Shown: one piece after another, positions 1,974 through 24,497 of the stretch | How the letters are laid out: each line of letters begins with the position of its first letter | Position numbering within the stretch: the stretch's first letter is position 1 | Assembly: GCA_017510065.1 (NCBI GenBank) | Contig: JAFWOB010000237.1 | Location: 1 to 36,934 of the forward strand | Direction of reading: 5' to 3' | Length of the DNA: 36,934 nucleotides | Source: Parasporobacterium sp. | Lineage (GTDB): Bacteria; Bacillota; Clostridia; Lachnospirales; Lachnospiraceae | Made by a program: the position numbers and the translations under genes | Notes under the pieces: generated by a model | Databases searched by the model: none | The model's input: only the letters and a program-made list of their open reading frames with translations | Told to the model about the DNA's origin: nothing

Positions 1974-2251
1974 GAGGCTGTGCATGATTTTCGCCGGCGC
2001 CCTGCAACGAATGCGGCGCTGTGCATGATTTTTTGTAATATATTCGAGGCTATGCACGATTTTAGTCCCTAAAAGGGGGTTAAAATCATGCATAGCCTCG
2101 ATTTCGTTGCAGCGGATTTCTGAAAAACGTGCACAGCATTGATTCTGTTACATTATTTTTCAAAAAATCATGCATAGCGTTGATTTCAGTGCAGCAGCTG
2201 GGGAGCATGCCCTGGAAAATCATGCATAGCCTCAATTTCAGTGCAGCAGCT
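1974..2251. repeat. Intergenic repeat array 1 (GTGCATGATTTT family)
   Basis: The 324 bases between the ileS stop and base 2262 hold no credible gene but seven copies of a motif close to GAGGCTATGCATGATTTT. Three copies face forward (about 1974, 2013 and 2044). Four are inverted (about 2082, 2124, 2163 and 2215), read as AAAATCATGCATAGCCTC and often followed by GATTTCAGTGCAGCAG. The third and fourth copies form a long hairpin (2044-2064 against 2081-2101) around a GTCCCTAAAAGGGGG loop. Measured on the conserved core, like-oriented copies lie 41 and 31 bases apart (forward) and 41, 41 and 52 bases apart (inverted). Because all forward copies lie left of all inverted ones, the region could also fold as one long stem. 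Function unknown. Confidence 0.85.
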
Positions 2252-2397
2252 GCGAAATCCTTTTGCAAAAAACAAAAAAATATAGCGCCATATGCTCTAT
2301 AACATATATACTAACTATAACAGTCGGGAAATACCGCTATATGACTGGATGTGTTATCGCAGCGACAAGGAACACCACGAGAGAGGAGGCAATCATT

Positions 2398-2892
2398 ATG
2401 TTAAACATTGTGGTAGAACTGGATAGCAGCAATCTGAACCCGGTATTGGAATCTTTTGGACTGGATACGAGCAGTTACGTCATCCCTCGGGAGAGTTCGG
2501 AAGCTGTTATCATGCGGATTTTTGAGGAAATGGCCAGAGACAGGGAACGAAAAAAGGCGGGCGTATCGCTGTCCGCTACCAGATGCGGGGAGACCAGGTT
2601 CTTTCCGGTGGGAGAGATTTATTACATGGAGTCCTTTCGGAATCTGGTCTGCATTTTCAGTGAGAAGGGCTCTTTTGAATTTTACAGCGCCCTGCGCAAA
2701 GTGGAGGAGACCACCAGGCGGCTGGGATTTTTCAGGGTCAACAATTCCTATATCATTTCACTGGCCCATGTGAGGAAGATCCAGAAAGGGTATGTCCAGC
2801 TGGACAACGGCAAGGAGATCAGCATCGGAAGAAAATTCAGACGCAGCTTCCGGGAAGCGGTAAGTCAGAAAGGAACGCTGCGGCTGAATTGA
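2398..2892 (+). CDS. Stand-alone LytTR-family DNA-binding regulator
   Basis: A 164-residue protein. The start chosen is ATG 2398, with AGGAGG at 2384-2389 eight bases upstream; an in-frame extension back to 2263 runs into low-complexity AT-rich sequence and has no ribosome site. Residues from about 60 to the end match the LytTR DNA-binding domain: GEIYYMESFRNLVCIF, then a segment like FFRVNNSYIISLAHV, then the basic IGRKFRRSF end. These are the usual YIES..., F.R.H.S..VN...V and I.VSR...K positions, with NNSYI in place of the common H.S. The first 55 residues show no receiver domain, so it is not a classical response regulator. Such short LytTR proteins often control neighbouring export or surface genes. 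Its target is unknown; it sits between ileS and the ABC importer with a terminator-like hairpin after it. Confidence 0.8.
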   Translation: MLNIVVELDSSNLNPVLESFGLDTSSYVIPRESSEAVIMRIFEEMARDRERKKAGVSLSATRCGETRFFPVGEIYYMESFRNLVCIFSEKGSFEFYSALRKVEETTRRLGFFRVNNSYIISLAHVRKIQKGYVQLDNGKEISIGRKFRRSFREAVSQKGTLRLN

Positions 2893-2922
2893 GGAAAGAA
2901 CGGACCGGAGAAACGGCAGAAT

Positions 2923-2950
2923 GGGCGGAGCAGACGGCTCCGCCCGCTTT
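2923..2950 (+). terminator. Terminator-like hairpin after the LytTR gene
   Basis: GGGCGGAGC (2923-2931), a five-base loop, and GCTCCGCCC (2937-2945) form a perfect nine-pair GC-rich stem followed by a short GCTTT. The T tract is weak, so termination efficiency is uncertain. Confidence 0.55.
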
Positions 2951-2998
2951 ACAGAAGAAAGCAGGTCGCGAAGCATTTGTAGAATTCTTAACATATGG

Positions 2999-3027
2999 TT
3001 GCTATTTACAGGCAATTGTTTTATAAT
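2999..3027 (+). promoter_or_regulatory. SigA-type promoter of the ABC importer operon
   Basis: TTGCTA (2999-3004), a 17-base spacer and a consensus TATAAT (3022-3027) lie about 50 bases ahead of the binding-protein start. Spacing and -10 are ideal, and the -35 matches at TTG--A. Confidence 0.75.
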
Positions 3028-3075
3028 CCGCCCGTCAATTAAATAACATGCTGCAAGCAGAAAGAAGGTTTTACT

Positions 3076-4575
3076 ATGAAACATTTTGTAACTTTTTGGC
3101 TGGTAATTGCAATTGTCACAGCAGCTGCACTCACGGTTTACGGAGGCACAAGCACAGACAATGAAGCTTCTAATTCTGTTGTTGTAGGCATCTCACAGGA
3201 TATCGACAGTCTTGACCCGCACAATGCGGAATATGCAGGAACCCGAGAAGTCTTGTTCAATCTGTTTGAAGGCCTTGTCAAGGCTACTTCAGACGGAAAT
3301 ATCGAACCCGCGGTAGCACAGAGCTATGAAGTTGCGGAAGATGCATCGTCTATATCGTTTACGATAAGAGAAGGCATTACATTCCACGACGGCACACCGG
3401 TCACTGCGGAAGATATTCAGTATTCGCTCGAGCGTTATGCACAGATCCAGGGATCTGAATCCGCCTTTGCGGACTTCAAGGAACTGGAGATCGCAGAAGA
3501 CGGGACGGTCACAGTCATCCTCAATGAGCCCAACACAGAATTCATTTATGAACTGACCTGCGCGATTTTGCCGAAGGCCAATGAAGAGAATGTCAACTCT
3601 TCGCCGATCGGAACAGGTCCCTTTAAATATGTCTCCTTCAAGCCGGGCGAGAGCCTTGTTGTGGAGAAATATGAAAACTACTGGAAAGAGGGATTCCCCT
3701 ATCTTGACCAGGTTACCTTTAAGGTAGAAACGGACGTGGACGCTGCCATCAATCAGCTGAATGCCGGCACGCTGGACATTTACCAGTATCTGACCGCTGA
3801 CCAGGCTGCCACCCTCAATGATCATTTCAACATCCTGGAGGGAAGCGTCAATTATGTACAGGGTATGTTCCTGAACAATGCTGTCAAGCCTTTTGACGAC
3901 GTGCGTGTGCGCCAGGCGGTGTATTATGCGGTGGACAGGGATCTGATCAATGAATTCCTGTTTGCAGGCAAATCCCACATCATCGGCACCAACATGATCC
4001 CGGCTGCAGAGTTTTATTACAATGCAGACACGGAGACCACCTACACCCACGATCCGCAGAAGGCAAAAGAACTGCTGGCAGAAGCAGGCTATCCGGACGG
4101 CTTTGAGTTTACCATCACGGTCCCGAACAACTATGCGCCTCATGAGGGAACCGCACAGATCATCGCGGAATCTCTTGCAGAAGTAGGGATCAAAGCCAAC
4201 ATCAACCTGGTGGAATTCAATACCTGGTATTCCGATGCCTATGTGGACCGCAACTACGAAGCCACGGTTGTGGCGGTAGACGGCAAGCTGGCACCGAACT
4301 CCTGGTTTGCGAAAAACATTTCCACAGCACCGAACAACTTCACCAATTACTCCAACCCGGAATTTGATGAAGTGTTTGAAAAAGCCCTGGCGGAGATCGA
4401 TCTGGATCAGAAGGCAGAGTATTACAAACAGCTGCAGCAGATCTTGGCTGATGACGCCGCTTCCATCTACGTACAGGATCCGGCCAACCTGGTGGCAGTC
4501 AATGCGGATCTGGAAGGCTATGTCTTCTATCCGATCTCTGCACAGGATATGTCGGTCGTCAAATTTATAGACTGA
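3076..4575 (+). CDS. ABC importer substrate-binding protein, family 5 (peptide/nickel type)
   Basis: A 499-residue extracytoplasmic solute-binding protein of the SBP_bac_5 group, which delivers peptides, nickel chelates or similar solutes to a DppBC-type permease. It has an N-terminal hydrophobic export segment (residues 1-22), then the family signature: DIDSLDPHNAEY, LFNLFEGLVK and FTIREGITFHDGTPVTAEDI, with the typical RQAVYYAVDRDLI in the middle and KAKELLAEAGYPDGF further on. ATG 3076 is preceded by GAAGG. Unusually for a Gram-positive binding protein, no cysteine follows the signal segment: the lipobox position reads LTVYGG. It may therefore be secreted or held by an uncleaved segment rather than lipidated. 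It is first in a tight four-gene operon, and the permease starts three bases after its stop. The substrate cannot be read from sequence. Confidence 0.92.
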   Translation: MKHFVTFWLVIAIVTAAALTVYGGTSTDNEASNSVVVGISQDIDSLDPHNAEYAGTREVLFNLFEGLVKATSDGNIEPAVAQSYEVAEDASSISFTIREGITFHDGTPVTAEDIQYSLERYAQIQGSESAFADFKELEIAEDGTVTVILNEPNTEFIYELTCAILPKANEENVNSSPIGTGPFKYVSFKPGESLVVEKYENYWKEGFPYLDQVTFKVETDVDAAINQLNAGTLDIYQYLTADQAATLNDHFNILEGSVNYVQGMFLNNAVKPFDDVRVRQAVYYAVDRDLINEFLFAGKSHIIGTNMIPAAEFYYNADTETTYTHDPQKAKELLAEAGYPDGFEFTITVPNNYAPHEGTAQIIAESLAEVGIKANINLVEFNTWYSDAYVDRNYEATVVAVDGKLAPNSWFAKNISTAPNNFTNYSNPEFDEVFEKALAEIDLDQKAEYYKQLQQILADDAASIYVQDPANLVAVNADLEGYVFYPISAQDMSVVKFID

Positions 4576-4578
4576 TAA

Positions 4579-5520
4579 ATGAGATATATAGGCAAGAAAT
4601 TCTTAACACTGATCATCGCCCTGCTGCTGATCTCCATCGTTGTGTTCCTGGCGTTTTCCATACTTCCGGCGGACGCTTCCATTGCCAAGCTCGGACAGAA
4701 TGCGACGCCGGAGAGGATCGCGGCGCTGCGTGCTGAAATGGGACTGGACCGGCCTGTGCTGGTCCAGTACTGGAGTTGGCTGACAGCGGCGATCAGGGGA
4801 GATTTCGGAACATCGTACCAGTATACCGGCACCAGCGTGGCCTCCCTGGTGGGAGGCCGGCTGGGCACCAGTGCGGTCCTGTCCCTGATCTCTTTTGTTA
4901 TGGTTGTCGTGATCTCGATCCCGGTGGGCATTTTCGGGGCCAAGAGAAGGTCCGTCCCCGGGCGGGCTGCCATGACGACGCTTGTCCATATCACCATGGG
5001 GGTGCCCTCTTTCTTCCTGGGTATACTGATCACCTATCTGTTTTCCCTTGTCCTGAAATGGTTTACCATTGGAAAATATGTACCGCCGGCGGAGGATCTC
5101 TCCGCCAGCATTTCTTATCTTGTATTTCCGGCGATTGCGATCGCCCTGCCGAAGATCGCCATGACGGTCAAGTTCCTGGTCTCTTCCATCCGGGCGGAAT
5201 TGCATAAGGATTATGTCAGGACAGCCTACGCCAAGGGCTGCAGCCGGAACGGCGTGTTTTACGGTCACGTACTGAAAAATTCCCTGGTGCCGGTCATAAC
5301 CTTCCTGGGGATCATCATTGCGGAGATCGTTGCCGGGAGCATCGTGGTGGAAAAAGTATTTTCGGTGCCCGGCATCGGGCTTTTACTGGTAACGGCAATT
5401 TCCAACCGGGATTATCCGGTGGTGGAAGCTGTGGTGCTGCTGATCGCGGTCGTAGTCATCGTGGTCAATTTCCTGGTGGACGTGATCTACCAGATCATTG
5501 ATCCGAGGGTGAAATTGTAA
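4579..5520 (+). CDS. ABC importer permease, DppB/OppB type
   Basis: A 313-residue inner-membrane permease with about six membrane segments. It opens with the DppB-type N-terminus (MRYIGKKFLTLIIALLLISI, then FLAFSILPAD). The binding-protein-dependent transport EAA loop is visible near the C-terminus (DYVRTAYAKGCSRNGVFYGH, then LKNSLVPVITFLG); it docks onto the ATPase. The protein ends with YQIIDPRVKL, typical of the family. The start lies three bases after the binding-protein stop with no clear Shine-Dalgarno, so translation is probably coupled by reinitiation. The stop codon TAA abuts the ATG of the second permease. Confidence 0.93.
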   Translation: MRYIGKKFLTLIIALLLISIVVFLAFSILPADASIAKLGQNATPERIAALRAEMGLDRPVLVQYWSWLTAAIRGDFGTSYQYTGTSVASLVGGRLGTSAVLSLISFVMVVVISIPVGIFGAKRRSVPGRAAMTTLVHITMGVPSFFLGILITYLFSLVLKWFTIGKYVPPAEDLSASISYLVFPAIAIALPKIAMTVKFLVSSIRAELHKDYVRTAYAKGCSRNGVFYGHVLKNSLVPVITFLGIIIAEIVAGSIVVEKVFSVPGIGLLLVTAISNRDYPVVEAVVLLIAVVVIVVNFLVDVIYQIIDPRVKL

Positions 5521-6318
5521 ATGAAAAAAAACAGGAACTACAGTCTGATCATAGGCCTGGTCATTACAGGGATCATGCTGGCGCTGGCGCTGACAGCTCT
5601 TTTCTGGACGCCCTATTCCACGACGGGAATGAGCCTGACCCTTAAGTTCGCGCCTCCTTCCTGGGCGCATCCCTTCGGGTGCGACAATTACGGCCGGGAT
5701 ATCCTGAGCCGTGTCATGCAGGGAATCGGGACCACGTTCCTGGTCGCTGCCAGCACCGTGATCTTCGGCATGATCGTGGGAAGCGTCATCGGCTTTTTCG
5801 CCGGTTACATTGGCGGCTGGTTTGACGAAGTGATCATGAGGATCAACGATGTGCTGAATGCTTTTCCGTCGATCCTGCTGGCGCTGGTATTTGTCAGCTT
5901 CCTGGGATCGGGTCTCATGAACATCATCCTGGCTCTCGGGATCTTGTTTATCCCCAGCTTTGCCAGGATTGCCAGATCGGAAATGCTGCGGCTGAAAGGG
6001 CTGCAGTTCGTACAGAGCGCCAGGTTATCCAAAGCAGGGACCTGCCGGATCATTTTCGCTCATATCATGCCCAACGCCTACATCGGCATCCTGGCATCGG
6101 CGGCGGTGGGCTTCAACAATGCGGTGATTGCGGAAGCGGGACTGAGTTTCCTGGGACTGGGCGTGCAGCCTCCCAATGCTTCTCTGGGCCGGATGATCGA
6201 TGAAGCCGGGAGCTTCCTGATGCAGGCGCCGTGGTACGCTATCTTTCCGGGCGTGACCATTATCATCCTGGTGCTGGGCGTGGCGCTGATCAGCGACGGC
6301 GTCAACCGCATGGATTAA
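5521..6318 (+). CDS. ABC importer permease, DppC/OppC type
   Basis: A 265-residue partner permease. It has the OppC-type N-terminal membrane segment, then HPFGCDNYGRDILSRVMQG, the hallmark (HPFGTDxxGRD) of the DppC/OppC family. The EAA-type loop (RLSKAGTCRIIFAHIMPNAY) and the conserved GLSFLGLGVQPPNASLG follow near the C-terminus. It begins on the base after the upstream permease stop, so the two are translationally coupled. Together with the upstream permease it should form the heteromeric channel; the ATPase gene follows after 29 bases. Confidence 0.93.
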   Translation: MKKNRNYSLIIGLVITGIMLALALTALFWTPYSTTGMSLTLKFAPPSWAHPFGCDNYGRDILSRVMQGIGTTFLVAASTVIFGMIVGSVIGFFAGYIGGWFDEVIMRINDVLNAFPSILLALVFVSFLGSGLMNIILALGILFIPSFARIARSEMLRLKGLQFVQSARLSKAGTCRIIFAHIMPNAYIGILASAAVGFNNAVIAEAGLSFLGLGVQPPNASLGRMIDEAGSFLMQAPWYAIFPGVTIIILVLGVALISDGVNRMD

Positions 6319-6347
6319 GCCGGCGAAGGCCGTGCAAACGATAGATT

Positions 6348-7886
6348 ATGTTATTACAGGTAAATGATCTGAAAGTCGAATACCATACCAAGACCAAGAT
6401 CTCTTATGCGGTGAAAGGGGTCTCCTTCAGCATGGAAAAAGGAGATATCCTGGGCATCGTGGGAGAGTCCGGATCCGGCAAGAGCACCATGGGGCTTGCC
6501 CTGATGATGCAGCTTCCCCAGACAGCGAAATTTACGGGCAGCGTGATCTTCAAGGACAGGGATCTGGTGCCTCTGAACTTTGATGAACTCCGGAAGATCA
6601 AGGGGTGCGAGATCTCTACCGTGTTCCAGGAACCCATGACTTCCCTGAACCCGCTGATCAGGGTGGGAAAGCAGGTGGAAGAGATCCTGAAGATCCATGA
6701 TAAAACGCTGACCAAGGAAGTGCGAAAAGACAAGGTACTTCGAATGTTCCGGAACGTGGAGCTTCAGAATCCGGAAGAGGTATATCATAAATACCCCCAC
6801 GAGCTTTCCGGCGGCATGCAGCAGAGAGTCATGATCGCCATGGCGCTGATGAACCATCCGGATCTTCTGATCGCGGATGAGCCTACGACAGCACTGGATG
6901 CGGACGTCCAGACCCAGATCCTGGAACTGTTAAAGAGCATCAATGAACGGTATGGGACCAGCATTATCCTGATCTCCCATGACCTCAGGGTCATCCGGCA
7001 GCTGTGCCGCAAGACGCTGGTCATGTACCAGGGTCTGGTCGTGGAGCAGGGGGATGTGGAGCAGATCTTCGAACGTCCCGAACATGAGTATACCAAGAGC
7101 CTGATCAGTGCCCTGACCAAGGGCGAGAAGGAGTCTGAAGAGTACGATAATGAAGCGATGCTCCAGGTTCGGGACCTGACGCTGTACTATGACATCAAAC
7201 CGGAAAAACTGGGACAGAAAAAGTTCCGGAAATACATTTGCCGGGATATGAACTTCACGGTCCATGAGGGAGAGATCGTAGGCCTTGTGGGGCCCAGCGG
7301 TTCCGGCAAGAGCTCTGTTTCCCGGGCGATCCTGGGGCTTCATAAGGATTATACGGGAGAGATCCTGCTGAAAGAGCCCAATCCCCAGATGATCTTCCAG
7401 GACAGCGCCTCCTCCCTCAATCCGGGGCGGAAGATCGGCTGGATCTTAGAAGAGCCCCTGAGAAATCTCCGGGACGAAAAGCAGCTCAAAAGAGTCCGCC
7501 AGGTCAGCCGGGTAAAAGAACTGCTGGGCGGGGAAGAACCGCCCTCAGAAGGCGCAAGATTATCCCGTAAGGAACGACGCACCATCGTCAGGGATATCCT
7601 GAAGCATGTGGAACTTCCGGAGGAGTTTTTAGGCCGCTATCCGGACGAGCTGTCCGGCGGGCAGAAGCAGAGAGTGAACATTGCCCTGGCGCTGATCGCG
7701 GGCTCCCGGTTCGTGATTGCCGATGAGCCGGTCTCCGCACTGGACGTGACCATTCAGGGGCAGATCCTGGAGCTTCTGCTGAATCTGCAGAGGGAACTGA
7801 ACCTGTCCATGCTGTTCATTTCCCATGACAAAGCGGTGGTGGACAGAATGTGCGACAAGGTGGTGCAGTTAGAGCCGCTGAAGTAA
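6348..7886 (+). CDS. Fused ABC importer ATPase (DppD-DppF type, two nucleotide-binding domains)
   Basis: A 512-residue cytoplasmic protein holding both ATPase halves of the importer in one chain. Domain 1 (about 1-260) has Walker A GESGSGKST, signature LSGGMQQR, Walker B LLIADEPTTALD and switch histidine in LISHDLRV. Domain 2 (about 266-512) has Walker A GPSGSGKSS, signature LSGGQKQR, Walker B FVIADEPVSALD and FISHDKAV. DppD and DppF are usually separate genes, so this fusion fixes a 1:1 pairing. Domain 2 carries a charged insertion before its signature motif (around KELLGGEEPPSEGARLSRKE). It ends the operon; a hairpin with a T tract about 40 bases later is the probable terminator. Confidence 0.93.
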   Translation: MLLQVNDLKVEYHTKTKISYAVKGVSFSMEKGDILGIVGESGSGKSTMGLALMMQLPQTAKFTGSVIFKDRDLVPLNFDELRKIKGCEISTVFQEPMTSLNPLIRVGKQVEEILKIHDKTLTKEVRKDKVLRMFRNVELQNPEEVYHKYPHELSGGMQQRVMIAMALMNHPDLLIADEPTTALDADVQTQILELLKSINERYGTSIILISHDLRVIRQLCRKTLVMYQGLVVEQGDVEQIFERPEHEYTKSLISALTKGEKESEEYDNEAMLQVRDLTLYYDIKPEKLGQKKFRKYICRDMNFTVHEGEIVGLVGPSGSGKSSVSRAILGLHKDYTGEILLKEPNPQMIFQDSASSLNPGRKIGWILEEPLRNLRDEKQLKRVRQVSRVKELLGGEEPPSEGARLSRKERRTIVRDILKHVELPEEFLGRYPDELSGGQKQRVNIALALIAGSRFVIADEPVSALDVTIQGQILELLLNLQRELNLSMLFISHDKAVVDRMCDKVVQLEPLK

Positions 7887-7910
7887 GAGGCAGATGATCA
7901 AATGAGTGTT

Positions 7911-9296
7911 TCAGATATGTTTCAGGCCGGGAGAGGCAAATCCTTCCCGGCTTCTTTTTTTATAGTAAATAAGTAGCGCCACATCCGTTACGAGCCAGGA
8001 CAGCGGATAGCAGATGCACAGCACCATGAGAGTCGGGGAGATCCGGAACGCGGTAAGGATCCAGATGATCCGCAGCAGACACACGCCGAGAGCCGTGATG
8101 ATCGTTGGCTTTACGGCGTCGCCGATCCCTCGCAGGATCCCGGAAAATGTCTCCACAACGGTCCACAGGACATAAAAAGGCACGAACATCAGCATGATGA
8201 ACCAGGTGGTATCGATGACGCCCTGATCTGTGGTAAAGATATGAAGCAGCGGTTTCGCCAGCAAAAGCAGCAGCCCGCTGATCACGACTGTGCCGCCTAA
8301 GAAGAGCAGAAAACCGGTTTTGGCGCAGGAGCGGATCCGGTCCATTTTGCCGGCGCCGTAATTCTGCGCTACGAAATTCATGATGGCAGTTCCGAAGGCA
8401 GAGGAGACAGCCCAGTAAACTCCGTCCAGTTTTCCCGACATGGACCAGGAGGCCACCACCACGGTGCCGAGAGAATTGACGCCCACCTGCAGGATGATAT
8501 TGGAAACGCCGTACATGGCGGACTGGAGTCCGGAGGGAACGCCGATAGCGAGCATCCGCTTCAGAATGATCATGTTGATCTTCAGGGAAGAAAGATCCAG
8601 CCGGTAGTATTCTTTGGTCCGCAGGAGCTTGATCATCACCAGCAGGAAACTGATCCCCTGAGCGATGGTGGTTGCCCATGCAACGCCGGCCACGCCCCAG
8701 TGGAATACGACCACGAACAGGATGTCCAGGATGATATTGGACAGACAGCTGACCACCAGGTACAGGAAGGGCCGCCGGGAATCCCCGATCGCCCGCAGGA
8801 TTCCGGATCCCATGTTAAAGACCAGGAGGAAAATGCTTCCGGCAAAATAGATCCGCATATAGATTCCGGCCTGCGTAAGGGTTTCTTCCGGCGTCCTAAG
8901 AAGACGCAGCACCGGATCCGCGCAGAATAACATGGCAATCGTCAGGACCGCGCCGATCACCACGCACAGAAGGACAGAGGTCCGGACCGCAATGGTGATC
9001 TTTTCCTGTTCCCGGGAACCGAAATATTGTGCGATCACCACCGCCGCACCGGAGGAGAGCGCCACAAAAAAGCCGATGATGAGCTGTGTCAGCGTGGCAG
9101 GACTGCCGCCTACCGCTGCAAGAGCTTCCGTGCCCACAAAGCGGCTTACGATCACCGCGTCCACAGCATTATAAAGCTGCTGGAACAAGGTTCCGGCAGC
9201 GATCGGCAGAAAATACAGGATCAGTTTTTTCCAGATGCTGCCTTCCGTCAGATCGCTTCCGACAGATCTGGTCTTTCTTGTATGGTCTTTCATCAT
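7911..9296 (-). CDS. MATE-family multidrug/Na+ antiporter
   Basis: A 461-residue membrane protein with about 12 hydrophobic segments in two homologous halves, the MATE fold. Such proteins export cationic drugs or metabolites against Na+ or H+. Family features: LILYFLPIAAGTLFQQLYNA with VDAVIVSRFVGTEALAAVG in the first segments; IDTTWFIMLMFVPFYVLWTV and GILRGIGDAVKPTIITALG in the second half. The start used is the first of two adjacent ATGs (MMKDH), preceded only by a weak AAAAGG. It is convergent with the ABC importer and divergent from the beta-helix protein gene. The last 15 codons include the importer terminator hairpin. Substrate unknown. Confidence 0.93.
   Translation of the reverse strand: MMKDHTRKTRSVGSDLTEGSIWKKLILYFLPIAAGTLFQQLYNAVDAVIVSRFVGTEALAAVGGSPATLTQLIIGFFVALSSGAAVVIAQYFGSREQEKITIAVRTSVLLCVVIGAVLTIAMLFCADPVLRLLRTPEETLTQAGIYMRIYFAGSIFLLVFNMGSGILRAIGDSRRPFLYLVVSCLSNIILDILFVVVFHWGVAGVAWATTIAQGISFLLVMIKLLRTKEYYRLDLSSLKINMIILKRMLAIGVPSGLQSAMYGVSNIILQVGVNSLGTVVVASWSMSGKLDGVYWAVSSAFGTAIMNFVAQNYGAGKMDRIRSCAKTGFLLFLGGTVVISGLLLLLAKPLLHIFTTDQGVIDTTWFIMLMFVPFYVLWTVVETFSGILRGIGDAVKPTIITALGVCLLRIIWILTAFRISPTLMVLCICYPLSWLVTDVALLIYYKKRSREGFASPGLKHI
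7926..7962 (+). terminator. Terminator of the ABC importer operon, inside the MATE gene end
   Basis: GCCGGGA (7926-7932) pairs with TCCCGGC (7945-7951) and is followed on the plus strand by TTCTTTTTTTA. It lies within the last codons of the convergent MATE gene, so the two genes share these bases. Confidence 0.7.
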
Positions 9297-11429: not shown

Positions 11430-11670
11430 CAACTGCACAAAAACTCCGATTGTGTACGTCAACTGCACAAAAACGCTGATTGTGTACGGCGAACATCAGG
11501 GAAAATACAGCAGAAAAGGCAAAACTACCAATGGGATGAGCCTGAAACTGTTCAAGAGTACCAATATTTTTGGTGGAGCGAAACCATTTTCTGCCTTTTT
11601 AAGGAACAGACCCGTACACAATCGCCAATATTGTGCAGTCGCCGTACACAAACGCGATTTTTGTGCAGCA
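11430..11670. repeat. Intergenic repeat array 2 (30-base units, two direct and two inverted)
   Basis: Two tandem 30-base units (11430-11459 and 11460-11489) start CAACTGCACAAAAAC and end GATTGTGTACG. Two inverted 30-base units (11611-11640 and 11641-11670) start CCGTACACAA and end TTGTGCAG. The spacing within each pair is exactly 30 bases. The 121-base interior holds inner arms GCAGAAAA (11510-11517) and TTTTCTGC (11587-11594), so the whole block can fold as one large stem. The gap between the beta-helix gene and tRNA-Lys (11376-11789) otherwise holds only the two terminators. A possible 134-codon frame across this block is not credible as a gene. Confidence 0.85.
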
Positions 11671-11749
11671 CCTAATTACATCTGCAGCAGCAGGAATCAT
11701 AATTCCCGGAATCCCCTGACAGAAACCAAGCTGAAAAAGTCTGAAACAC

Positions 11750-11773
11750 AAAAACCCCGGCCAATCGGCCGGG
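11750..11773 (-). terminator. Terminator of tRNA-Lys
   Basis: On the minus strand CCCGGCC (11773-11767), a four-base loop and GGCCGGG (11762-11756) are followed by a run of T, 16 bases after the tRNA end. Confidence 0.8.
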
Positions 11774-11789
11774 ATTTGGGTATAAAAAA

Positions 11790-11862
11790 TGCACCCTCAG
11801 GGGCTCGAACCCTGGACACCCTGATTAAGAGTCAGGTGCTCTACCAACTGAGCTAAGGGTGC
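11790..11862 (-). tRNA. tRNA-Lys, anticodon CTT
   Basis: The minus strand gives a 73-base cloverleaf. The acceptor GCACCCT pairs with AGGGTGC plus discriminator A. The D arm contains AGCTCAGTTGGTAGAGC, the anticodon stem CCTGA/TCAGG encloses loop CTCTTAA (anticodon CTT, reading AAG), and the T arm contains GGTTCGAGCC. The CCA end is not encoded. It is a single-gene unit with its own promoter and terminator. Confidence 0.96.
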
Positions 11863-17356: not shown

Positions 17357-17387
17357 TACCGGCGTTGGCAGAATATTTTCAACTAGA

Positions 17388-17403
17388 CCGGCCGCCAGGC
17401 CGG
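17388..17403 (+). terminator. GC hairpin after lon
   Basis: CCGGCC-GCCA-GGCCGG is a perfect six-pair stem with a four-base loop, 32 bases after the stop. No T run follows, so termination is uncertain. Confidence 0.4.
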
Positions 17404-17433
17404 ATAACGTTCCGCGATTTTGATGATCCTTAT

Positions 17434-17648
17434 AAACAAGAATAGTGCTTTATCCTTTTTTCGGAAAAATCCACAAAACAAGAATAGAGCACTATTCTTA
17501 TTTCATGAAAACGCTCAAAAAAAGAATAGTTATCACGGAAATAATCCGGAAGACTATTCGTAAATCAGTGAAATGAATCAAAAAAGGATATTGCACTATT
17601 CTTGTTTTGCCAAAAAATATAAATCGCGAAAGAAAACTATTCTTGTTT
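17434..17648. repeat. Intergenic repeat array 3 (AAACAAGAATAG / CTATTCTTGTTT)
   Basis: The gap between convergent lon and the dehydrogenase (17357-17712) is filled with short inverted repeats. Forward cores (AGAATAG) start at 17439, 17481 and 17523, with a diverged one (AGGATA) at 17585. Inverted cores (TATTC) start at 17493, 17555, 17597 and 17638, with a diverged one at 17451. Forward spacings are 42, 42 and 62; inverted spacings are 42, 62, 42 and 41. Several pairs make local hairpins, for example 17476-17503. The outer copies can also pair across the array. No gene is evident. Confidence 0.82.
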
Positions 17649-17662
17649 GACCAAAATTTCCG

Positions 17663-17714
17663 GATCGCGGAAAAAGATCGCAAAAATGTTCGCGGAAAAA
17701 GATCGCGGAAGATC
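17663..17714. repeat. Four tandem 12-13-base repeats (GATCGCGGAAAAA)
   Basis: Units start at 17663, 17676, 17688 and 17701 and read GATCGCGGAAAAA, GATCGCAAAAAT, GTTCGCGGAAAAA and GATCGCGGAAGATC. An inverted relative, TTCCGCGATTTTGAT, lies on the far side of array 3 at 17410-17424. The last unit overlaps the stop codon of the dehydrogenase gene. Confidence 0.75.
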
Positions 17715-18693
17715 AGATCCCGTTCTGGATGTTCAGCGGTCGTTCGCCGTTCATCACCCGCAGGATGTTGTCACGGCCGCTTGTCAGCATTCTTATGAAA
17801 GAGGAATCGGAAAAGCCGGCGCTGTGCGGAGTCAGGATCATATGGTCCGAGATCTCCGGAGGCAGATTCAGCAGAGGATGATCGGGGCCCGGGTATTCCG
17901 GCCAGACGGTATCCAGGGCGCAGCGTTCGATCCATCCTTCCTTCAGGGCCTGCGCCAGAGCGGCAGAGTCCACCAGTTCTCCCCTGGAGCAGTTCACCAG
18001 GATCGCATCCCGGCGCATCAGCTTCAGGGTTTTTTCATTGATCATATTGACGGTGGCAGGAGAGGCCGGGACATGAAGGGAAATGATATCGCACTGCTGT
18101 AGGAGTTCCTCCAAAGGAAGGTACTGTACCCGGTACTGCTCCTCGATTTTCTGAGAATATCTGGTCCGGGAATAGTAATTGATCCTGCAGCCGAAGGGCT
18201 GCAGATAGAATGCCAGGGTCCTTCCGATATCTCCGAACCCGACCAGCCCCACATGGCAGTCACTCAGCTGACGGGTCCTGTGGCGGGTAAATTCGGCCCT
18301 TGCTTCCATGGCGTTTGCCTTTCTGTATTCCCGGTCCAGAAACGGGATCTCCCTAAGGCAGCTCAGGATCATAGCCAGGGTATGTTCCGCTACACAGAAT
18401 CGGTTCGAGGATCTGGTATTGCAGACAAAGATCCCTTTTTCAGCAGCCGCTGCCAGGTCGATCTTATCATATCCCACACCCTGTGTCTGGATCAGCTTCA
18501 GCCGGTCAGAGGCGCGGATCAGATCCGCGCCGATCGGATCCAGGGAAGAGATCCACAGAACATCAGCGCCTTTTATATTGGACAGGAATTCCTGTTCTGT
18601 CGGATCGATATATATGACGTCCAGATCGGAAGGGGGAAGAACGCCGTATCGTTCAAAACGGGATCTCGGAAGGGAGGATACGATGCGTGCCAT
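17713..18693 (-). CDS. D-isomer-specific 2-hydroxyacid dehydrogenase
   Basis: A 326-residue NAD(P)-dependent oxidoreductase that interconverts a 2-hydroxyacid and a 2-ketoacid. The Rossmann motif is visible (HVGLVGFGDIGRTLAFYLQP), followed by the family signature ILVNCSRGELVDSAALAQAL with the catalytic arginine. The Glu position appears in ALDTVWPEYPGPDHPLL and the catalytic histidine in MILTPHSAGFSD. The N-terminal substrate domain (VLPPSDLDVIYIDPTEQEFL) is of the phosphoglycerate/lactate dehydrogenase-like group, but nothing fixes the substrate. ATG 18693 is preceded by AAGGAG. It is a single-gene unit, convergent with lon across array 3; its stop codon lies in the last 13-base repeat. Confidence 0.9.
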   Translation of the reverse strand: MARIVSSLPRSRFERYGVLPPSDLDVIYIDPTEQEFLSNIKGADVLWISSLDPIGADLIRASDRLKLIQTQGVGYDKIDLAAAAEKGIFVCNTRSSNRFCVAEHTLAMILSCLREIPFLDREYRKANAMEARAEFTRHRTRQLSDCHVGLVGFGDIGRTLAFYLQPFGCRINYYSRTRYSQKIEEQYRVQYLPLEELLQQCDIISLHVPASPATVNMINEKTLKLMRRDAILVNCSRGELVDSAALAQALKEGWIERCALDTVWPEYPGPDHPLLNLPPEISDHMILTPHSAGFSDSSFIRMLTSGRDNILRVMNGERPLNIQNGI

Positions 18694-18917
18694 GGGGATT
18701 CAGCTCCTTATCTTTATGAAACATCTCTGGGAAGCAGATTTATACTAACACAGAAAAGGGCCTTCCGTAAACACGGGGAAGAGGGGTTGGTTGGCATATT
18801 ACTGACAGAACCCTTCCTGAAACAGGATATTTTGTATAAAAATACTCATAGATTATAGGCAGATTGTATACTATAATTTATATGCAAAAATTCGGTATAT
18901 ACAGAAAGTGTAATACG

Positions 18918-20762
18918 ATGAGTATTTTTGATGTTATATCCTTGTTCGGCGGACTGGCCATGTTCCTTTACGGAATGCGGCTCATGGGAAATGGCCTGAA
19001 GGAAGGTTCTTCCGGAACCCTGAAGATGGCTATGGAAAAGGTTACGAACAATCCGGTCAAAGCCTTTTTCCTGGGTCTTCTGATCACGGCCGTGATCCAG
19101 TCATCCACGGCAACCATTGTTATCACTTCCGGTCTGGTAGCGGCAGGCGTGATCTCGCTGCATCAGTCCCTGGGCATCATTGTAGGCGCCAACGTCGGTA
19201 CCACAGTGACCGGCCAGATCATTCGCCTCCTTGATGTGGATTCCTCCGGAACTTCATTTCTGAGGATCTTCCAACCGTCGACTCTTGCTCCGCTGGCCCT
19301 GATCGCAGGCATTGTCCTGATCATGGGGTTCAGCAAATCCAAACGATCCAATAATATAGGAAATATTTTCATCGGATTCGGAATCCTGTTCTCAGGTCTT
19401 CTGAACATGACAAGCGCTGTCAGCGTACTGTCGGAAAACGGGATGCTGGATTCGATCTTTTCCAGTATCGGCGACCGGATGTGGCTCGGCTTTCTGGCCG
19501 GTGCCAGCGTGTCCTTTATCCTGCAGAGTTCTTCCGCGTCAGTCGGTATCCTGCAGGCGTTCTCCATGGCCAGCGTAATCCCATTCAAGACCGTTTACAT
19601 CATGCTGGTAGGTATCTACCTGGGAGACTGCCTGACAACGGCCATTGTCTGCTACATCGGTGCCAAGGCCAACCAAAAGCGGGTCGGCCTGATCAACGTG
19701 TTATTCAACCTTGGGAAAATGCTTCTCGTGCTGGTGGTCGTCAACATATTGCATATTACAGGTGTGCTGGGCGGCCTGTGGGACAATGCCATGACCCCCG
19801 GCTCCATCGCCAATGCCAATACGGTCTTCAATCTGGCCTGCGCAGTGATCCTGCTTCCCTTTATGGGAGCATTTGAGAAACTGGGCAAAAAGATCATCCG
19901 GGACGACAAGAGCAGGAAGAGCCTGTATGAGGAGAAGCTCCAGGCCCTTAACCCGGTGTTCTTCGCTACGCCGGCGATCGCATTTAACAGCTGCTATGAA
20001 GTCCTGAAGACCATGCTGCAGCTGTCCACCAGAAGTATCAACGTGGCAGTCGCCAATCTGCGGAACTTCAGCCGCGCGGAATTCAATGAGCTGCTGGATC
20101 GGGAAGATGATATCGATATGCTGACCGACAATGTGGGAAATTATCTGGTGGAACTGTCGCCGAACATTGTAGAGGAAAACCATATCCGGATCCTGAACCA
20201 GTACAATCGGCTGGTCAATGAGTTTGAGCGTCTGGGTGACCACGGCGTCAATATCGCGGAAGTAGCGGCCCAGCTGCATGAGAGCCGGATGAGTTTTTCC
20301 GAAATGGCCCTGCAGGAGATCGAAACCGCAAAGGATCTGCTGGATACGATCCTGGATTATACCTGGCGCGCGTTTGAAAAGAGGGATCCGGAAGCAGCCT
20401 GGCATATCGAGCCGCTGGAAGATGTTATGGACGATGTGATCAATACGCTCCATGACAATCATCTGGCGCGGCTGCGGGCAGGAGAATGCACGATCAACGC
20501 CGGCACGGCTTTCCTGGATGTCCTGACCAACATGGAAAGGATCTCCGATATCTGCTCCAACATCGGTATTTCCGTCGTGGCCAGGGTAAAGCCGGAAGTG
20601 GCGTCTCTCGCCCATACCTATGTAACGAGTCTGCATGAAGGAAATGACAATCATTTCAGGGAAGAATACAACAGAGTCCACGAGCAGTATTTTGACCGGC
20701 TGAAATCCATCGGATGGCCGGAACTGCCATCGGAGGACGAAACTGAGGTGACATTGTCCTAA
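18918..20762 (+). CDS. Na+/phosphate cotransporter with C-terminal PhoU-like domain
   Basis: A 614-residue protein of the NptA/PNaS family. The start chosen is ATG 18918 (MSIFDVISLFGGLAMFLYGM), where family members usually begin; an earlier in-frame start at 18864 adds residues unlike the family, and no start has a good ribosome site. The membrane part (about 1-330) holds the two inverted QSS repeats that define the phosphate/Na+ site: AVIQSSTATIVITSGLVAAG and FILQSSSASVGILQAF, plus IVGANVGTTVTGQII. Residues about 345-605 are helical with PhoU-like spacing (LVNEFERLGDHGVNIAEVA; LDVLTNMERISDICSNIG), probably regulating transport or binding metal. A TATAAT at 18872-18877 may be its -10, but no clear -35 is seen. 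Confidence 0.92.
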   Translation: MSIFDVISLFGGLAMFLYGMRLMGNGLKEGSSGTLKMAMEKVTNNPVKAFFLGLLITAVIQSSTATIVITSGLVAAGVISLHQSLGIIVGANVGTTVTGQIIRLLDVDSSGTSFLRIFQPSTLAPLALIAGIVLIMGFSKSKRSNNIGNIFIGFGILFSGLLNMTSAVSVLSENGMLDSIFSSIGDRMWLGFLAGASVSFILQSSSASVGILQAFSMASVIPFKTVYIMLVGIYLGDCLTTAIVCYIGAKANQKRVGLINVLFNLGKMLLVLVVVNILHITGVLGGLWDNAMTPGSIANANTVFNLACAVILLPFMGAFEKLGKKIIRDDKSRKSLYEEKLQALNPVFFATPAIAFNSCYEVLKTMLQLSTRSINVAVANLRNFSRAEFNELLDREDDIDMLTDNVGNYLVELSPNIVEENHIRILNQYNRLVNEFERLGDHGVNIAEVAAQLHESRMSFSEMALQEIETAKDLLDTILDYTWRAFEKRDPEAAWHIEPLEDVMDDVINTLHDNHLARLRAGECTINAGTAFLDVLTNMERISDICSNIGISVVARVKPEVASLAHTYVTSLHEGNDNHFREEYNRVHEQYFDRLKSIGWPELPSEDETEVTLS

Positions 20763-20777
20763 AGACCGGGATAAAAA

Positions 20778-20866
20778 TGCATACTTCATGTGTAAAGTGC
20801 ATAAAGATTACAAATATCTTTGACAAATATGCAAAAATGACGTATAAATGTGCATAAGCATGAAGC
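20778..20866 (+). promoter_or_regulatory. argC promoter with candidate ArgR boxes
   Basis: TTGACA (20820-20825), a 17-base spacer and TATAAA (20843-20848) form a strong promoter about 100 bases ahead of argC. Four ATGCAT/GTGCAT-like words (near 20778, 20798, 20829 and 20850) occur as two pairs about 20 bases apart, one pair upstream of and one overlapping the promoter. CATGTGTAAAGTGCATAA resembles the Bacillus ARG box. Arginine repression is expected for this operon; these sites are inferred. Confidence 0.6.
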
Positions 20867-20868
20867 CG

Positions 20869-20892
20869 GGAGTTGTATTTCGATACAGCTCC
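20869..20892 (+). promoter_or_regulatory. UUCG-loop hairpin in the arg leader
   Basis: GGAGTTGTAT (20869-20878), loop TTCG, and ATACAGCTCC (20883-20892) pair over ten positions with one G-U. It is followed by TGTCTGTTTAG, too poor in T for a confident terminator. It may stabilise the mRNA 5' end or act as an attenuator. Confidence 0.5.
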
Positions 20893-20948
20893 TGTCTGTT
20901 TAGATTAGAACACTGCAACCGACGCAGGGAAAAGACAAAGGAGGAGGC

Positions 20949-21893
20949 ATGAAAAAAATCTTTATTGACGGAAGCGCCGGCACGACAGGACTTCGCATCA
21001 GGGAACGACTTGCTGCAAGACGGGACATCGAATTGGTGATACTTCCTGAGGAACTTCGTAAGGAAGCACAGGCCAGAAAAGACGCGATCAATGGTTCAGA
21101 TATCGTGTTTCTGTGCCTTCCGGATGACGCGGCCAGGGAATCCGCCGGGATGGTGGAAAACGAAGAGACTGTGATCATCGACACCTCTACGGCCCATCGG
21201 ACGGCAAGCGGCTGGGTGTATGGCTTCCCCGAGATCGGAGGCCGCCGGGAGAAGATCCGGACAGCAAGAAAGATCGCCAACCCCGGATGTCACGCCAGCG
21301 GATTCATTTCCCTGACGGCGCCTCTTACGGAGGCAGGTGTCCTGAAGCCTTCCAGTCATGTGTCCTGCTTTTCCCTCACCGGTTATTCCGGCGGCGGCAA
21401 GAAAATGATCGCCGACTATGAGGCGCAGGATCAGACGCCGGAGCATAAAAAGCTCCTTTCGGGACCTCGCATGTACGGCCTTTCCCAGAATCATAAGCAT
21501 CTTCCGGAAATGGCGAAGATCTGCGGCCTGATCTATGAACCGGTCTTCTGCCCGGTGGTGGGAGATTTTTACGCTGGTATGGAAGTGGTGGTGCAGCTGC
21601 CCGCGGAAGACTGCTACGCGGGAGTGAAAGAGATCGCTAAGATCTACAGTGAATATTATGCAGCGGAAAAAGGCGGGCTGGTGCATTTTGCCGGCGGCGC
21701 CGATGAGGAAGGATTTTTGTCGGCAGCAGCATTTGCCGGACGGGACGACATGCAGGTCAGCGTCTGGGGCAATGACGACAGGATCTTACTGGTCAGCCGG
21801 TTTGACAACCTGGGCAAGGGAGCATCCGGCGCGGCGATCCAGAACATGAACCTGGTCATGGGGATCGATGAGACAACAGGGCTTGTCTTTTGA
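20949..21893 (+). CDS. argC: N-acetyl-gamma-glutamyl-phosphate reductase, type 2
   Basis: A 314-residue NADPH-dependent enzyme of step 3 in arginine synthesis, reducing N-acetylglutamyl phosphate to the semialdehyde. The length and the N-terminal IFIDGSAGTTGLRIRERL match the short type 2 ArgC. The catalytic cysteine is C114 in IANPGCHASGF, and the sugar/phosphate-binding FSLTGYSGGGKKMI follows. ATG 20949 has GGAGGAGG just upstream. It is first in the argCJBDF cluster, behind a strong promoter with ArgR-like sites. Confidence 0.96.
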   Translation: MKKIFIDGSAGTTGLRIRERLAARRDIELVILPEELRKEAQARKDAINGSDIVFLCLPDDAARESAGMVENEETVIIDTSTAHRTASGWVYGFPEIGGRREKIRTARKIANPGCHASGFISLTAPLTEAGVLKPSSHVSCFSLTGYSGGGKKMIADYEAQDQTPEHKKLLSGPRMYGLSQNHKHLPEMAKICGLIYEPVFCPVVGDFYAGMEVVVQLPAEDCYAGVKEIAKIYSEYYAAEKGGLVHFAGGADEEGFLSAAAFAGRDDMQVSVWGNDDRILLVSRFDNLGKGASGAAIQNMNLVMGIDETTGLVF

Positions 21894-21944
21894 GAGACAG
21901 AGCATTTGATATATTTGACAGGAAATTGCATTACGGAGGATAAC

Positions 21945-23159
21945 ATGAAATTTATTGAAGGCGGCGTATGTGCAGCGAAAGGATTTACGGCAGGCGGCGT
22001 ACACTGCGGCATTCGCAAGAACAAAGACAAGAAGGACCTCTCCCTGATCCTGAGCGAGGTTCCCGCATCCTGTGCGGCGGTGTATACCACGAACCTGGTG
22101 CAGGGAGCTCCGATCCTGGTGGACAAGCGCCATCTTTCGGACGGGATCGCCCAGGCCATCATCTGCAACAGTGGCAATGCCAATACCTGCAACGCAGACG
22201 GCATTCAGGTGGCAGAGAAGATGAGCCAGCTTACAGCGCAGCAGCTGAAGATCAGGACAGAGGATGTGGTGGTTGCCTCCACCGGCGTGATCGGACAGCC
22301 TCTGGATATCACTCCGATCGCGGAAGGAATGCCATCTCTTGCAGCGGCGCTTTCCAAAGACGGCTATAAAGATGCCACGGAAGGTATCATGACCACAGAC
22401 ACCGTGCCCAAGATCGTGGCGGTGGAATGCGAGATCGGCGGCAAGACCTGCCGCATCGGCGGCATCGCTAAGGGAAGCGGCATGATCCACCCCAACATGG
22501 CCACCATGCTGGTCTTTATCACTTCCGACGTGGCGATCGCTCCGGAAATGCTGCAAAAAGCCCTGTCGGGAGACATCCAGAGCACCTTCAACATGCTCAG
22601 CATCGACGGGGACACCTCCACCAATGACACCGTGGTGGTGATGGCCAACGGTCTTGCAGGAAATGCCGTGATCACCGAAGAAGGGGAAGACTTCACCGCC
22701 TTCATGCAGGCGCTGAATACAGTCAATGTGGCTCTGTGCCGGATGATCGCCGGAGACGGGGAAGGCGCTACCAAACTGCTGGAATGCAAGCTGGACGGCG
22801 CGGCGGACCTGAAAAATGCCCGGATCGCAGCCAAGAGCGTGATCTGTTCCAGCCTCCTGAAAGCGGCCATGTTCGGCGCGGACGCCAACTGGGGCCGTGT
22901 CATGTGCGCCATCGGATACAGCGGCGCGGATGTTGACATCACAAAGATCGATGTGGCGTTCCGCAGCAAAGCCGGGACGATCGTAGTCTGCCAGCAGGGA
23001 GCCGGCGTGCCGTTCTCGGAAGAGAAAGCCAAGGAGATCCTGCTGGAAAATGAGATCGAGATCCTGGTGAGCTGCCACGCGGGCGACGCCTGCGCCACCG
23101 CCTGGGGATGTGATCTGACTTATGATTATGTGAAGATCAACGGGGATTACCGGACCTGA
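21945..23159 (+). CDS. argJ: Glutamate N-acetyltransferase (bifunctional or ornithine acetyltransferase)
   Basis: A 404-residue enzyme that moves the acetyl group from N-acetylornithine back to glutamate, making the pathway cyclic; some ArgJ also use acetyl-CoA. ATG 21945 is preceded by ACGGAGGA. The self-cleavage/catalytic threonine is T187 in MIHPNMATMLVF, preceded by IGGIAKGSG, and the protein should mature into alpha and beta chains at this point. Other family signatures are ICNSGNANTCNADG and the C-terminal LTYDYVKINGDYRT. It lies 51 bases after argC, and no argA is needed beside a bifunctional ArgJ. Confidence 0.96.
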   Translation: MKFIEGGVCAAKGFTAGGVHCGIRKNKDKKDLSLILSEVPASCAAVYTTNLVQGAPILVDKRHLSDGIAQAIICNSGNANTCNADGIQVAEKMSQLTAQQLKIRTEDVVVASTGVIGQPLDITPIAEGMPSLAAALSKDGYKDATEGIMTTDTVPKIVAVECEIGGKTCRIGGIAKGSGMIHPNMATMLVFITSDVAIAPEMLQKALSGDIQSTFNMLSIDGDTSTNDTVVVMANGLAGNAVITEEGEDFTAFMQALNTVNVALCRMIAGDGEGATKLLECKLDGAADLKNARIAAKSVICSSLLKAAMFGADANWGRVMCAIGYSGADVDITKIDVAFRSKAGTIVVCQQGAGVPFSEEKAKEILLENEIEILVSCHAGDACATAWGCDLTYDYVKINGDYRT

Positions 23160-23194
23160 TCGGGGAAGGGAACCTATCGGTTTTACGAAATAAA

Positions 23195-23236
23195 GCCGGT
23201 CGGCGGATGCATTTGCCGGTCGGCAGCTTTCATTTT
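23195..23236 (+). terminator. Hairpin between argJ and argB
   Basis: The ten-base word GCCGGTCGGC occurs at 23195-23204 and 23215-23224. Because it is nearly self-complementary, the two copies pair over ten positions (two G-U) around a ten-base loop. AGCTTTCATTTTTT follows, so it could be a partial terminator or an mRNA processing site within the operon. Confidence 0.5.
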
Positions 23237-23259
23237 TTAGAGATACGGAGCAATTTATC

Positions 23260-24120
23260 ATGCAGACAGAATTTTCCAATGCGGAGCGGGCCCAGGTACT
23301 TGTCCAGGCTCTGCCGAATATCAAAAAATACGTGGGCAAGATCGTCGTGGTCAAATACGGCGGCAACGCCATGATCAATGAAGAACTCAAGCAGCAGGTC
23401 ATGGAGGACATCGTGCTCCTGAACCTGATCGGCGTGAAGATCGTGCTGGTGCACGGCGGCGGGCCCGAGATCTCCGAAATGATGGATAAGCTTGGCAAGA
23501 AAACCGAGTTTGTGAACGGCCTCCGGGTAACGGACGCGGAAACGGCGGAGATCGCCCAGATGGTCCTGTCCGGCAAGGTCAACAAATCCCTGGTGAACCT
23601 GCTTCTCAAGAAAGGCGGCAACGCCATCGGCCTGTCCGGCGTGGACGGCCGGTTCATCGAAGCGGAAATGAAGGACGAGCGCCTGGGATACGTAGGCCGG
23701 ATCACCAATATCAACGTTGACCCGGTGATTGGACTCTTTGAAGGCGGCTACATCCCGGTGGTGGCGACTGTCGGCTGCGATCGCAGCGGCAATGTCTATA
23801 ACATCAACGGTGATACGGCAGCGGCTTATCTGGCCGGTGCTCTCGGCGCAGAACGCCTGATCATGATGACCGATGTGGACGGGATCTTAAGGGACAAGGA
23901 CGATCCGACCACCCTGATCTCGCATGTCACCATCGAAGAAGCAAAGGAACTGTTTGCCCAGGGCATCATCGCCGGCGGCATGATCCCCAAGGTGGAATGC
24001 TGCATCGAGGCGATCAGCCGCGGCGTGAAAAACGTAGTTATCATGGACGGCCGTGTTCCCCATGCGATCCTGATGGAGCTGCTGACAGACGAAGGCGCCG
24101 GCACCATGATCGGTGAGTAA
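23260..24120 (+). CDS. argB: Acetylglutamate kinase
   Basis: A 286-residue amino-acid kinase that phosphorylates N-acetylglutamate, step 2 of arginine synthesis. The nucleotide/phosphate loop VVVKYGGNAM is near the N-terminus, then IVLVHGGGPEISEMM and the acetylglutamate-binding FVNGLRVTDAETAEI. The C-terminal part has NVYNINGDTAAAYLAGALGA, MTDVDGILRDKDDP and IAGGMIPKVECC. The N-terminal extension before KYGG (about 25 residues, AQVLVQALPNIKKYVGK) resembles arginine-sensitive hexameric forms, so feedback inhibition is likely. ATG 23260 has no strong ribosome site (GAGATACGGAGC lies upstream). Array 4 begins 95 bases after the stop. Confidence 0.96.
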   Translation: MQTEFSNAERAQVLVQALPNIKKYVGKIVVVKYGGNAMINEELKQQVMEDIVLLNLIGVKIVLVHGGGPEISEMMDKLGKKTEFVNGLRVTDAETAEIAQMVLSGKVNKSLVNLLLKKGGNAIGLSGVDGRFIEAEMKDERLGYVGRITNINVDPVIGLFEGGYIPVVATVGCDRSGNVYNINGDTAAAYLAGALGAERLIMMTDVDGILRDKDDPTTLISHVTIEEAKELFAQGIIAGGMIPKVECCIEAISRGVKNVVIMDGRVPHAILMELLTDEGAGTMIGE

Positions 24121-24215
24121 GGCCGGGCGGTTTGTGAAGCCGGCGGCGCTGCAGCTTTGCATCTTCCGGTATAAGCTGATAGAAATTGGTAGTTTTTAAC
24201 AGCAGGTCCCAAAAT

Positions 24216-24497
24216 GATACGAAGAGTAAGAAAAATGTATTTTTCGTATCGTTGCTTGCTACGAAGAGAAGTAAAAATATTATTTCGTATCTTTAGCTGC
24301 TACGAAGAGAGAAAAAAACAGTATTTCGTATCATTTATAAGATACGAATAGAATAAAAAACTATATTTCGTATCATTGACTGCTACGAAGAAAGAAAAAA
24401 TATTTATTTCGTATCAATTACATGATACGAAATGAAACAAATCATTCTATTTCGATCAAAACGTGATACGAAAAGAGCAAATTACTCTATTTCGATC
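24216..24497. repeat. Intergenic repeat array 4: seven hairpin units, period about 41.5
   Basis: The 420-base argB-argD gap holds seven tandem units. Each starts GATACGAA or GCTACGAA and ends TTCGTATC (TTCGATC in the last two), with an A-rich interior of about 18 bases. The TACGAA cores start at 24218, 24260, 24301, 24343, 24384, 24426 and 24467, so spacings are 42, 41, 42, 41, 42 and 41. Each unit can form a seven- or eight-pair hairpin, and linkers between units are about 7-11 bases. Interiors and linkers vary while the arms are kept, as expected for selection on the inverted pair. The rest of the gap (24121-24215 and 24498-24540) shows only the argD ribosome site. Confidence 0.92.

Follow-up and report, generated by a model that had tools for sequence, protein, structure and literature searches.

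What are the four arrays of short inverted repeats that lie between genes in a 36,934-nucleotide stretch of a Parasporobacterium genome, and to what protein do they belong? A preliminary description, made from this stretch alone, held that each array was built from a motif private to its locus, that like-oriented copies were spaced close to multiples of the 10.4-base helical repeat, as protein sites on one face of the DNA would be, and that no named class of element fitted. We call the whole stretch (G000:C231:1-36934) the window, where G stands for a genome, C for a contig, and L for a fetched locus; G000 is the source genome, a 3.47-Mb draft in 242 contigs, and other G numbers are relatives. 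The observation is confirmed, the protein-site reading is the one to favor, and a probable enzyme partner of the arrays has been found in a nuclease-like protein encoded elsewhere in the genome. The best reading is of a nuclease with dispersed cognate arrays, similar in its working to RAYT transposases and their REPIN sequences but with unrelated parts. On balance, we lean toward the view that the arrays are the nonautonomous half of a system that is probably mobile and that the nuclease-like protein is the other half.

Arrays are found next to nuclease-like genes at a much higher rate than next to control genes. One gap that holds a 263-bp family 1 array (families are numbered after the four arrays of the window) in the relative G012 holds 1,384 bp in G000, and the longer stretch encodes a protein of 335 residues. 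The gene family has four copies in G000, on contigs C128, C95, C36, and C142, which are 35 to 43% identical to this protein where compared. At C128, the gene has a family 1 array on either side, in the same orientation; at C95, two 88%-identical arrays flank the gene, also in the same orientation, and their motif occurs at three other places; at C36, an array lies 3′ of the gene. Degenerate family-2-like copies lie 5′ of the gene at C142, including one unit with a single mismatch (0.00 expected), although the overall score of this flank is below those of the other copies (z of 4.4 for family 2 and 3.3 for family 1). A profile of the four copies had 37 matches, which came from 11 of the 14 genomes searched in the genus. 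Thirty of these loci were fetched and compared with 392 control open reading frames of at least 250 amino acids, an array being counted when it lay within 800 bp and scored as z, its internal 7-mer matches against 12 dinucleotide-preserving shuffles per gap. Arrays at z ≥ 8 adjoined 17 of the 30 nuclease loci and 49 of the 392 controls; the counts were 22/30 versus 82/392 at z ≥ 5 and 16/30 versus 39/392 at z ≥ 10. Without the two closest genomes, G000 and G012, the counts were 13/24 and 15/190 (Fisher p = 1.9e-7), so the link holds where arrays are rare.

Beyond the genus, few genomes had relatives of the protein: with one protein as the query, none of 294 others in the order did, and with a 28-sequence profile, two others did among 390 of the class. 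G461, from a different family of that class, has four nuclease copies; 3′ of one of them lies an array built of 41-bp units (L226), and a related array (77 to 84% identity) lies elsewhere, on another contig. No relative was found among viral contigs and phages. Among plasmid records, a 900-kb one from Collinsella aerofaciens encodes a single distant relative, at 29.5% identity. A 42-nt inverted-repeat pair lies on its 3′ side (L217:3449-3697) but no multiunit array; this stretch does not recur in the collection, and 50 kb of the record had no strong array.

In some cases, proximity is accompanied by a match in motif. Of the four families of the window, only families 1 and 2 have a dispersed motif that also adjoins one of the G000 nuclease genes. 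The family 1 motif flanks the gene at C128 and is dispersed in G000, and the C95 motif is likewise dispersed there, in few copies. Family-2-like units, with 1 to 3 mismatches, lie beside nucleases that are 46 to 57% identical in G000, G003, and G010, at unrelated places with no flanking genes in common. In G001, the gap that corresponds to that of array 4 carries an array whose motif is also found at the nuclease gene on C127 of that genome.

Two parts of the preliminary interpretation, that the arrays are protein sites and that no named class fits, have stood, but the motifs are not private to their loci. Each is a dispersed, multicopy family. With the arrays of the window as queries, family 1 was found at about 36 places in its own genome (E ≤ 1.1e-18; two of them, which end contigs C219 and C220, could be a single place), family 2 at about 21, family 3 at about 9, and family 4 at about 10, as tallied by hand from match lists with neighboring matches merged. 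Many further motif families exist besides these four. When the window and 20 further 20-kb stretches (436,934 bases) were surveyed, 23 of the 116 scored gaps of at least 150 bp had z ≥ 6, at least 15 inverted matches, and known genes on both sides, again with many motifs. Visual inspection did not cover each of these survey hits, and chance may account for a few. Arrays fill a good share of the larger gaps in these genomes, and a nuclease-and-array system would explain them.

All four arrays of the window were recovered (Table 1), and they start 36, 55, 78, and 96 bases past plus-strand stop codons at 1938, 11375, 17356, and 24120, as the preliminary description had it. Array 2 was skipped by the shuffle scan since a spurious 134-amino-acid open reading frame (11452-11856) overlies it; its unit pattern was used instead, and the four matches in the window, against 0.01 expected, all fall within the array. 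The spacings between like-oriented copies were reproduced on recounting for array 2 (30 and 30) and array 4 (42, 41, 42, 41, 42, and 41) and changed in part for array 1 (41 and 31 on the plus strand; 82 and 52 on the minus strand) and array 3 (42 and 42 on the plus strand; 62, 42, and 41 on the minus strand).

Table 1. Arrays of the window, by window position, and the RAYT-like Y1 protein of the source genome
Feature	Position	Strand	Details
Array 1, family 1	1974..2251	+	motif GSTATGCATGATTTT; z = 21.1
Array 2, family 2	11430..11670	+	two plus-strand units TGCACAAAAAYNNNNRTTGTGTACG, two minus-strand units about 120 bp apart
Array 3, family 3	17434..17648	+	palindromes AAGAATAG..CTATTCTT; z = 15.5
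Array 4, family 4	24216..24497	+	half-sites GATACGAA / TTCGTATC; z = 21.6
RAYT-like Y1 protein, 266 aa	L098:1123-1923 (G000:C199)		RAYT model 43.8 bits versus cut-off of 80

In array 1, three plus-strand copies of the motif lie to the left and minus-strand copies to the right of a central inverted repeat near 2069-2082, and the array is flanked by ileS and a gene for a LytTR-domain protein. Array 2 sits after a hairpin that resembles an intrinsic terminator and ahead of a minus-strand tRNA. Array 3 lies between convergent genes for a Lon-like protein and a 2-hydroxyacid dehydrogenase. Behind it, up to the convergent gene end, are direct 13-mers like TCGCGGAAAAAGATCGC (17649-17714) that do not share the array motif.

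Helical spacing extends well beyond the window. We assembled 74 arrays from ten genomes in 26 sequence clusters, 24 of which had a main lag backed by at least five 7-mer matches: 28, 30, 41 (six clusters), 42 (seven clusters), 50, 51, 51, 52, 52, 53, 62, 95, and 125. These lags are phased, with R = 0.86 at 10.45 bp, a value that none of 20,000 uniform draws matched. The common lag of 41 or 42 accounts for much of this signal, but with lags of 39 to 44 and 80 to 86 removed, and with them the lags of 41, 42, and 83, the remaining 25 strong lags still gave R = 0.61, again with 0/20,000 uniform draws as high. The optimum of this subset is broad (R of 0.62 at 10.5, 0.63 at 10.75, and 0.58 at 11.0), and the period is fixed only loosely by it. 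In a normalized histogram, 70% of the lag weight lay within about 1 bp of multiples of 10.4, versus about 20% expected, and the corresponding figures were 6% for a period of 11 and 12% for 9.5. The rule describes family 2 (30 bp) and also the TTTTCTAA family (50 and 72 bp) less well; the latter matches helical phasing only when a free offset is allowed for half-site geometry. This TTTTCTAA..TTAGAAAA family, which is about 215 bp long with lags of 50, 72, and 122, has an overall mirror symmetry and occurs at L127, L128, L144, L145, and L152.

Arrays that lie behind stop codons and are rich in inverted repeats might be expected to act as RNA, as terminators, stabilizers of mRNA 3′ ends, or regulatory RNAs. 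In the four arrays of the AGAAC family, 22 of 25 center-to-center spacings are 40 to 42 bp (mean, 41.5), two are 84, and one is 44.5. At a C/T position in the palindrome, the arms of this family vary independently (12, 8, 5, and 4 over 29 units; Fisher p = 1), and 13 of the 29 units are mismatched and unable to pair there. Because the arms vary independently, recognition of double-stranded DNA is favored over hairpins, and hairpin or RNA structure was rejected on this ground, in the one family in which covariation was tested. Whole helical turns would be meaningless for RNA, and in the window and seven array loci, tRNA was the only Rfam 15 family to exceed its gathering score; a known RNA family was rejected accordingly. 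A structured RNA is therefore highly improbable as an explanation of the arrays. Phased lags together with independently varying arms favor, as the better reading of these sequences, double-stranded protein sites that would be held on one face of the DNA, one of the two possibilities in the preliminary description.

The candidate reader of such sites is about 335 residues long, and its C-terminal domain resembles, by sequence match, DUF559/EDxHD domains of the PD-(D/E)XK fold. Pfam's DUF559 matches three of the four members in G000 (best E = 3.6e-4), and MTES_1575 matches one. By profile, the best match in the PDB is 3r3p, the homing endonuclease I-Bth0305I; the match is weak (E = 0.014 and 0.011) and spans the E-x-D...D core. 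Across the homologs compared, E187, D232, and E243 are kept in 30/30, H250 and D259 in 29/29, and D245 in 27/30, and residues 21 to 80 are among the most variable (entropy of 2.6 to 2.75, versus 1.3 near the catalytic core). From this pattern we infer that the protein is an active nuclease whose variable part reads the DNA.

A diverse, patchy, multiparalog nuclease that keeps its active-site residues could also serve in defense against foreign DNA or act as a toxin, with the arrays of the host holding it, titrating it, or marking self, and a weak PADLOC match to 'HEase' (E = 0.015) points in the same direction. We consider this quite unlikely, as no PADLOC model scored above noise, the spread of the arrays would go unexplained, and no antitoxin or defense genes were seen nearby, although none were sought. 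In PHROGs, the protein matched only noise.

Whether an array keeps its motif in the corresponding gap of sister genomes, a question that the preliminary description had raised, has a divided answer: the family is kept in the array 2 gap of G012, and other families are found elsewhere. The array 1 gap contains a family 3 array in G012 (E = 9.9e-20 against array 3), whose ileS end is 93% identical, a third kind of array with a lag of 53 in G008, and no array in G001. Different arrays stand in G001 in the gaps of array 2 (z = 15.5) and array 4 (z = 17.9), the gap in G008 that corresponds to array 4 is too small for one, and the neighborhood of array 3 is rearranged in both G001 and G008.

Binding, cutting, and movement are steps that we infer. 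In the two-part system that we favor, each nuclease lineage would have its own palindromic motif, with half-sites set on the same helical face at 31, 41/42, 52, or 62 bp, and the variable N-terminal region would read this motif as an oligomer lined along the array. The nuclease would cut at or near arrays, repair would copy the array, or the array plus the gene, to new places, and arrays that lack the gene would be moved in trans, much as RAYTs move REPINs. More tentatively, the arrays may be dispersed homing platforms for the nuclease, in a selfish element of a new class: the protein would coat a phased array and cut its gene-free form, and repair from an array-gene-array copy would install the gene. 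Arrays that flank the gene in the same orientation, as at C128 and C95, are as predicted by homing of this kind. Motif and reader would diverge together, so that one genome gathers many mutually blind families, which would displace one another in gaps.

Several results weigh against a mobile nuclease-and-array system. None of the 31 distinct nuclease loci examined has the motif of family 3, of family 4, or of five further families; as the assembly of G000 is 90% complete, genes may be missing from it. Sharing of motifs did not follow protein similarity significantly (permutation p = 0.078 for pairs below 80% identity). Outside G000 and G012, 11 of the 24 nuclease loci have no array at z ≥ 8, and at the same threshold G461 and G656 together show no clear enrichment (2/7 nuclease loci versus 8/90 controls). 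The nuclease assignment is built on weak matches, the member scanned in detail falls under the DUF559 cut-off, and NCBIfam has no match to the protein. No clean empty site was found, and target duplications were seen in none of the 14 family 1 copies that were parsed out of 20 tried, given a direct repeat of at least 3 and ends set ad hoc. Finally, in 22 overlapping locus pairs of G000 and G012, about 96 kb in sum, most of the compared arrays lie in the same place, a share that is biased because the loci had been fetched for their arrays; two gaps differ in content, that of array 1 and the one in which G000 has the nuclease gene.

Such constancy of place would be expected if a nuclease-derived DNA-binding protein had been domesticated and the arrays were its operators or chromosome-organizing sites, kept for function and not moving. 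Phased sites would suit this role, as would the arrays that lie 5′ of many nuclease genes and the gain or loss of single units, seen in a region where G000 and G012 are 99.4% identical but one array is a 61-bp unit longer than the other (an 88-bp difference there lies outside the array). We nevertheless regard it as unlikely. Catalytic-type residues are retained across the compared homologs, many unrelated motifs occur in one genome, families are swapped in orthologous gaps, and certain nuclease genes have an array on their 3′ side only. Operators would also be unexpected between convergent genes, where 13 of the 23 survey arrays are found (versus 51 of all 330 adjacent gene pairs and, among gaps of at least 150 bp, 22 of 102). 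Array 4 is an exception in kind to this placement, as it lies inside an apparent arginine operon, between argB-like and argD-like genes by their Pfam matches.

The comparison of these two genomes yielded two further observations. About 1.8 kb of L157:6193-8240 (G012:C105) is 99.4 to 100% identical to L060 (G000:C78), against about 92% for most of the other aligned loci; the cause may be cross-contamination of the assemblies, a recent transfer, or strong conservation. In addition, among contigs C80, C126, and C177 of G012 and C128 and C186 of G000, several from G012 match the same nuclease neighborhood of G000 with different nucleases, 56% and 84% identical to that of G000, and these repeated matches may reflect paralogous regions or a mixed assembly.

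Arrays that are intergenic, palindromic, dispersed, and enriched at 3′ ends could, in principle, be ordinary miniature inverted-repeat transposable elements or REPINs, moved by an insertion sequence or RAYT (Y1) transposase, and G000 does encode one RAYT-like Y1 protein (Table 1) and two of IS200 type, as found in a survey limited to Y1 transposases. We find this very unlikely. No array lies in the flanks of the three Y1 genes, five of which were present and gave best z values of 2.6, 0.2, 0.8, 4.2, and 2.4, the sixth being absent; the RAYT-like protein scores below the cut-off of the RAYT model; and neither target duplications nor hairpin covariation were found in the copies and the family described above. 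Membership in RAYT/REPIN systems was rejected since the RAYT-like gene is without arrays.

How, then, do the arrays compare with known elements? Bacterial interspersed mosaic elements (BIMEs), BOX, STAR, and similar modular repeats are intergenic mosaics of repeated modules, as the arrays are, but a species usually carries a single family of them, and we know of no nuclease partner or helical phasing for any of them. Foldback-type and Tn7-type ends carry several transposase sites in opposite orientation, another likeness, but here sites span the whole element and no such transposase was found adjoining. Closest in organization are REPINs and RAYTs: in the Pseudomonas case, a different REPIN cluster lies beside each RAYT, with several flavors per genome (PMC3116915), and both systems consist of short, dispersed, intergenic palindromes with a palindrome cluster of its own beside each gene for a trans-acting enzyme. 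The gene here, however, is for a DUF559/EDxHD-like nuclease and not a Y1 transposase, and the arrays have many helix-phased half-sites, unlike a REPIN, which is a doublet that folds as a single strand and keeps its arms complementary. I-Bth0305I, the best structural match, is said in a review (PMC3943268) to dimerize on a target of nearly 60 bp, a long target like the sites here, but it is a single, intron-encoded enzyme for which the passages of the review consulted describe no dispersed arrays, and the N-terminal 230 residues of our protein are unrelated to it by these searches, in which the match itself was weak (E about 0.01).

The statement that no named class of element fits held for the arrays in Rfam and for the partner protein in Pfam, NCBIfam, PADLOC, and PHROGs, and a limited literature search found no description of a nuclease and phased-array system. 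These comparisons suggest a kind of mobile DNA without earlier description. Known bacterial systems of dispersed palindromes and an enzyme use Y1 transposases and single-stranded DNA; in this case, a nuclease of another fold appears to be paired with double-stranded, helix-phased arrays. One genus with dozens of nuclease-motif pairs could serve as a natural code for how the DNA-binding region chooses its site.

Apart from the arrays, the window also encodes a 2,597-residue protein (27049-34842) with SpaA, Big_2, and PA14 domains that is likely a surface protein.

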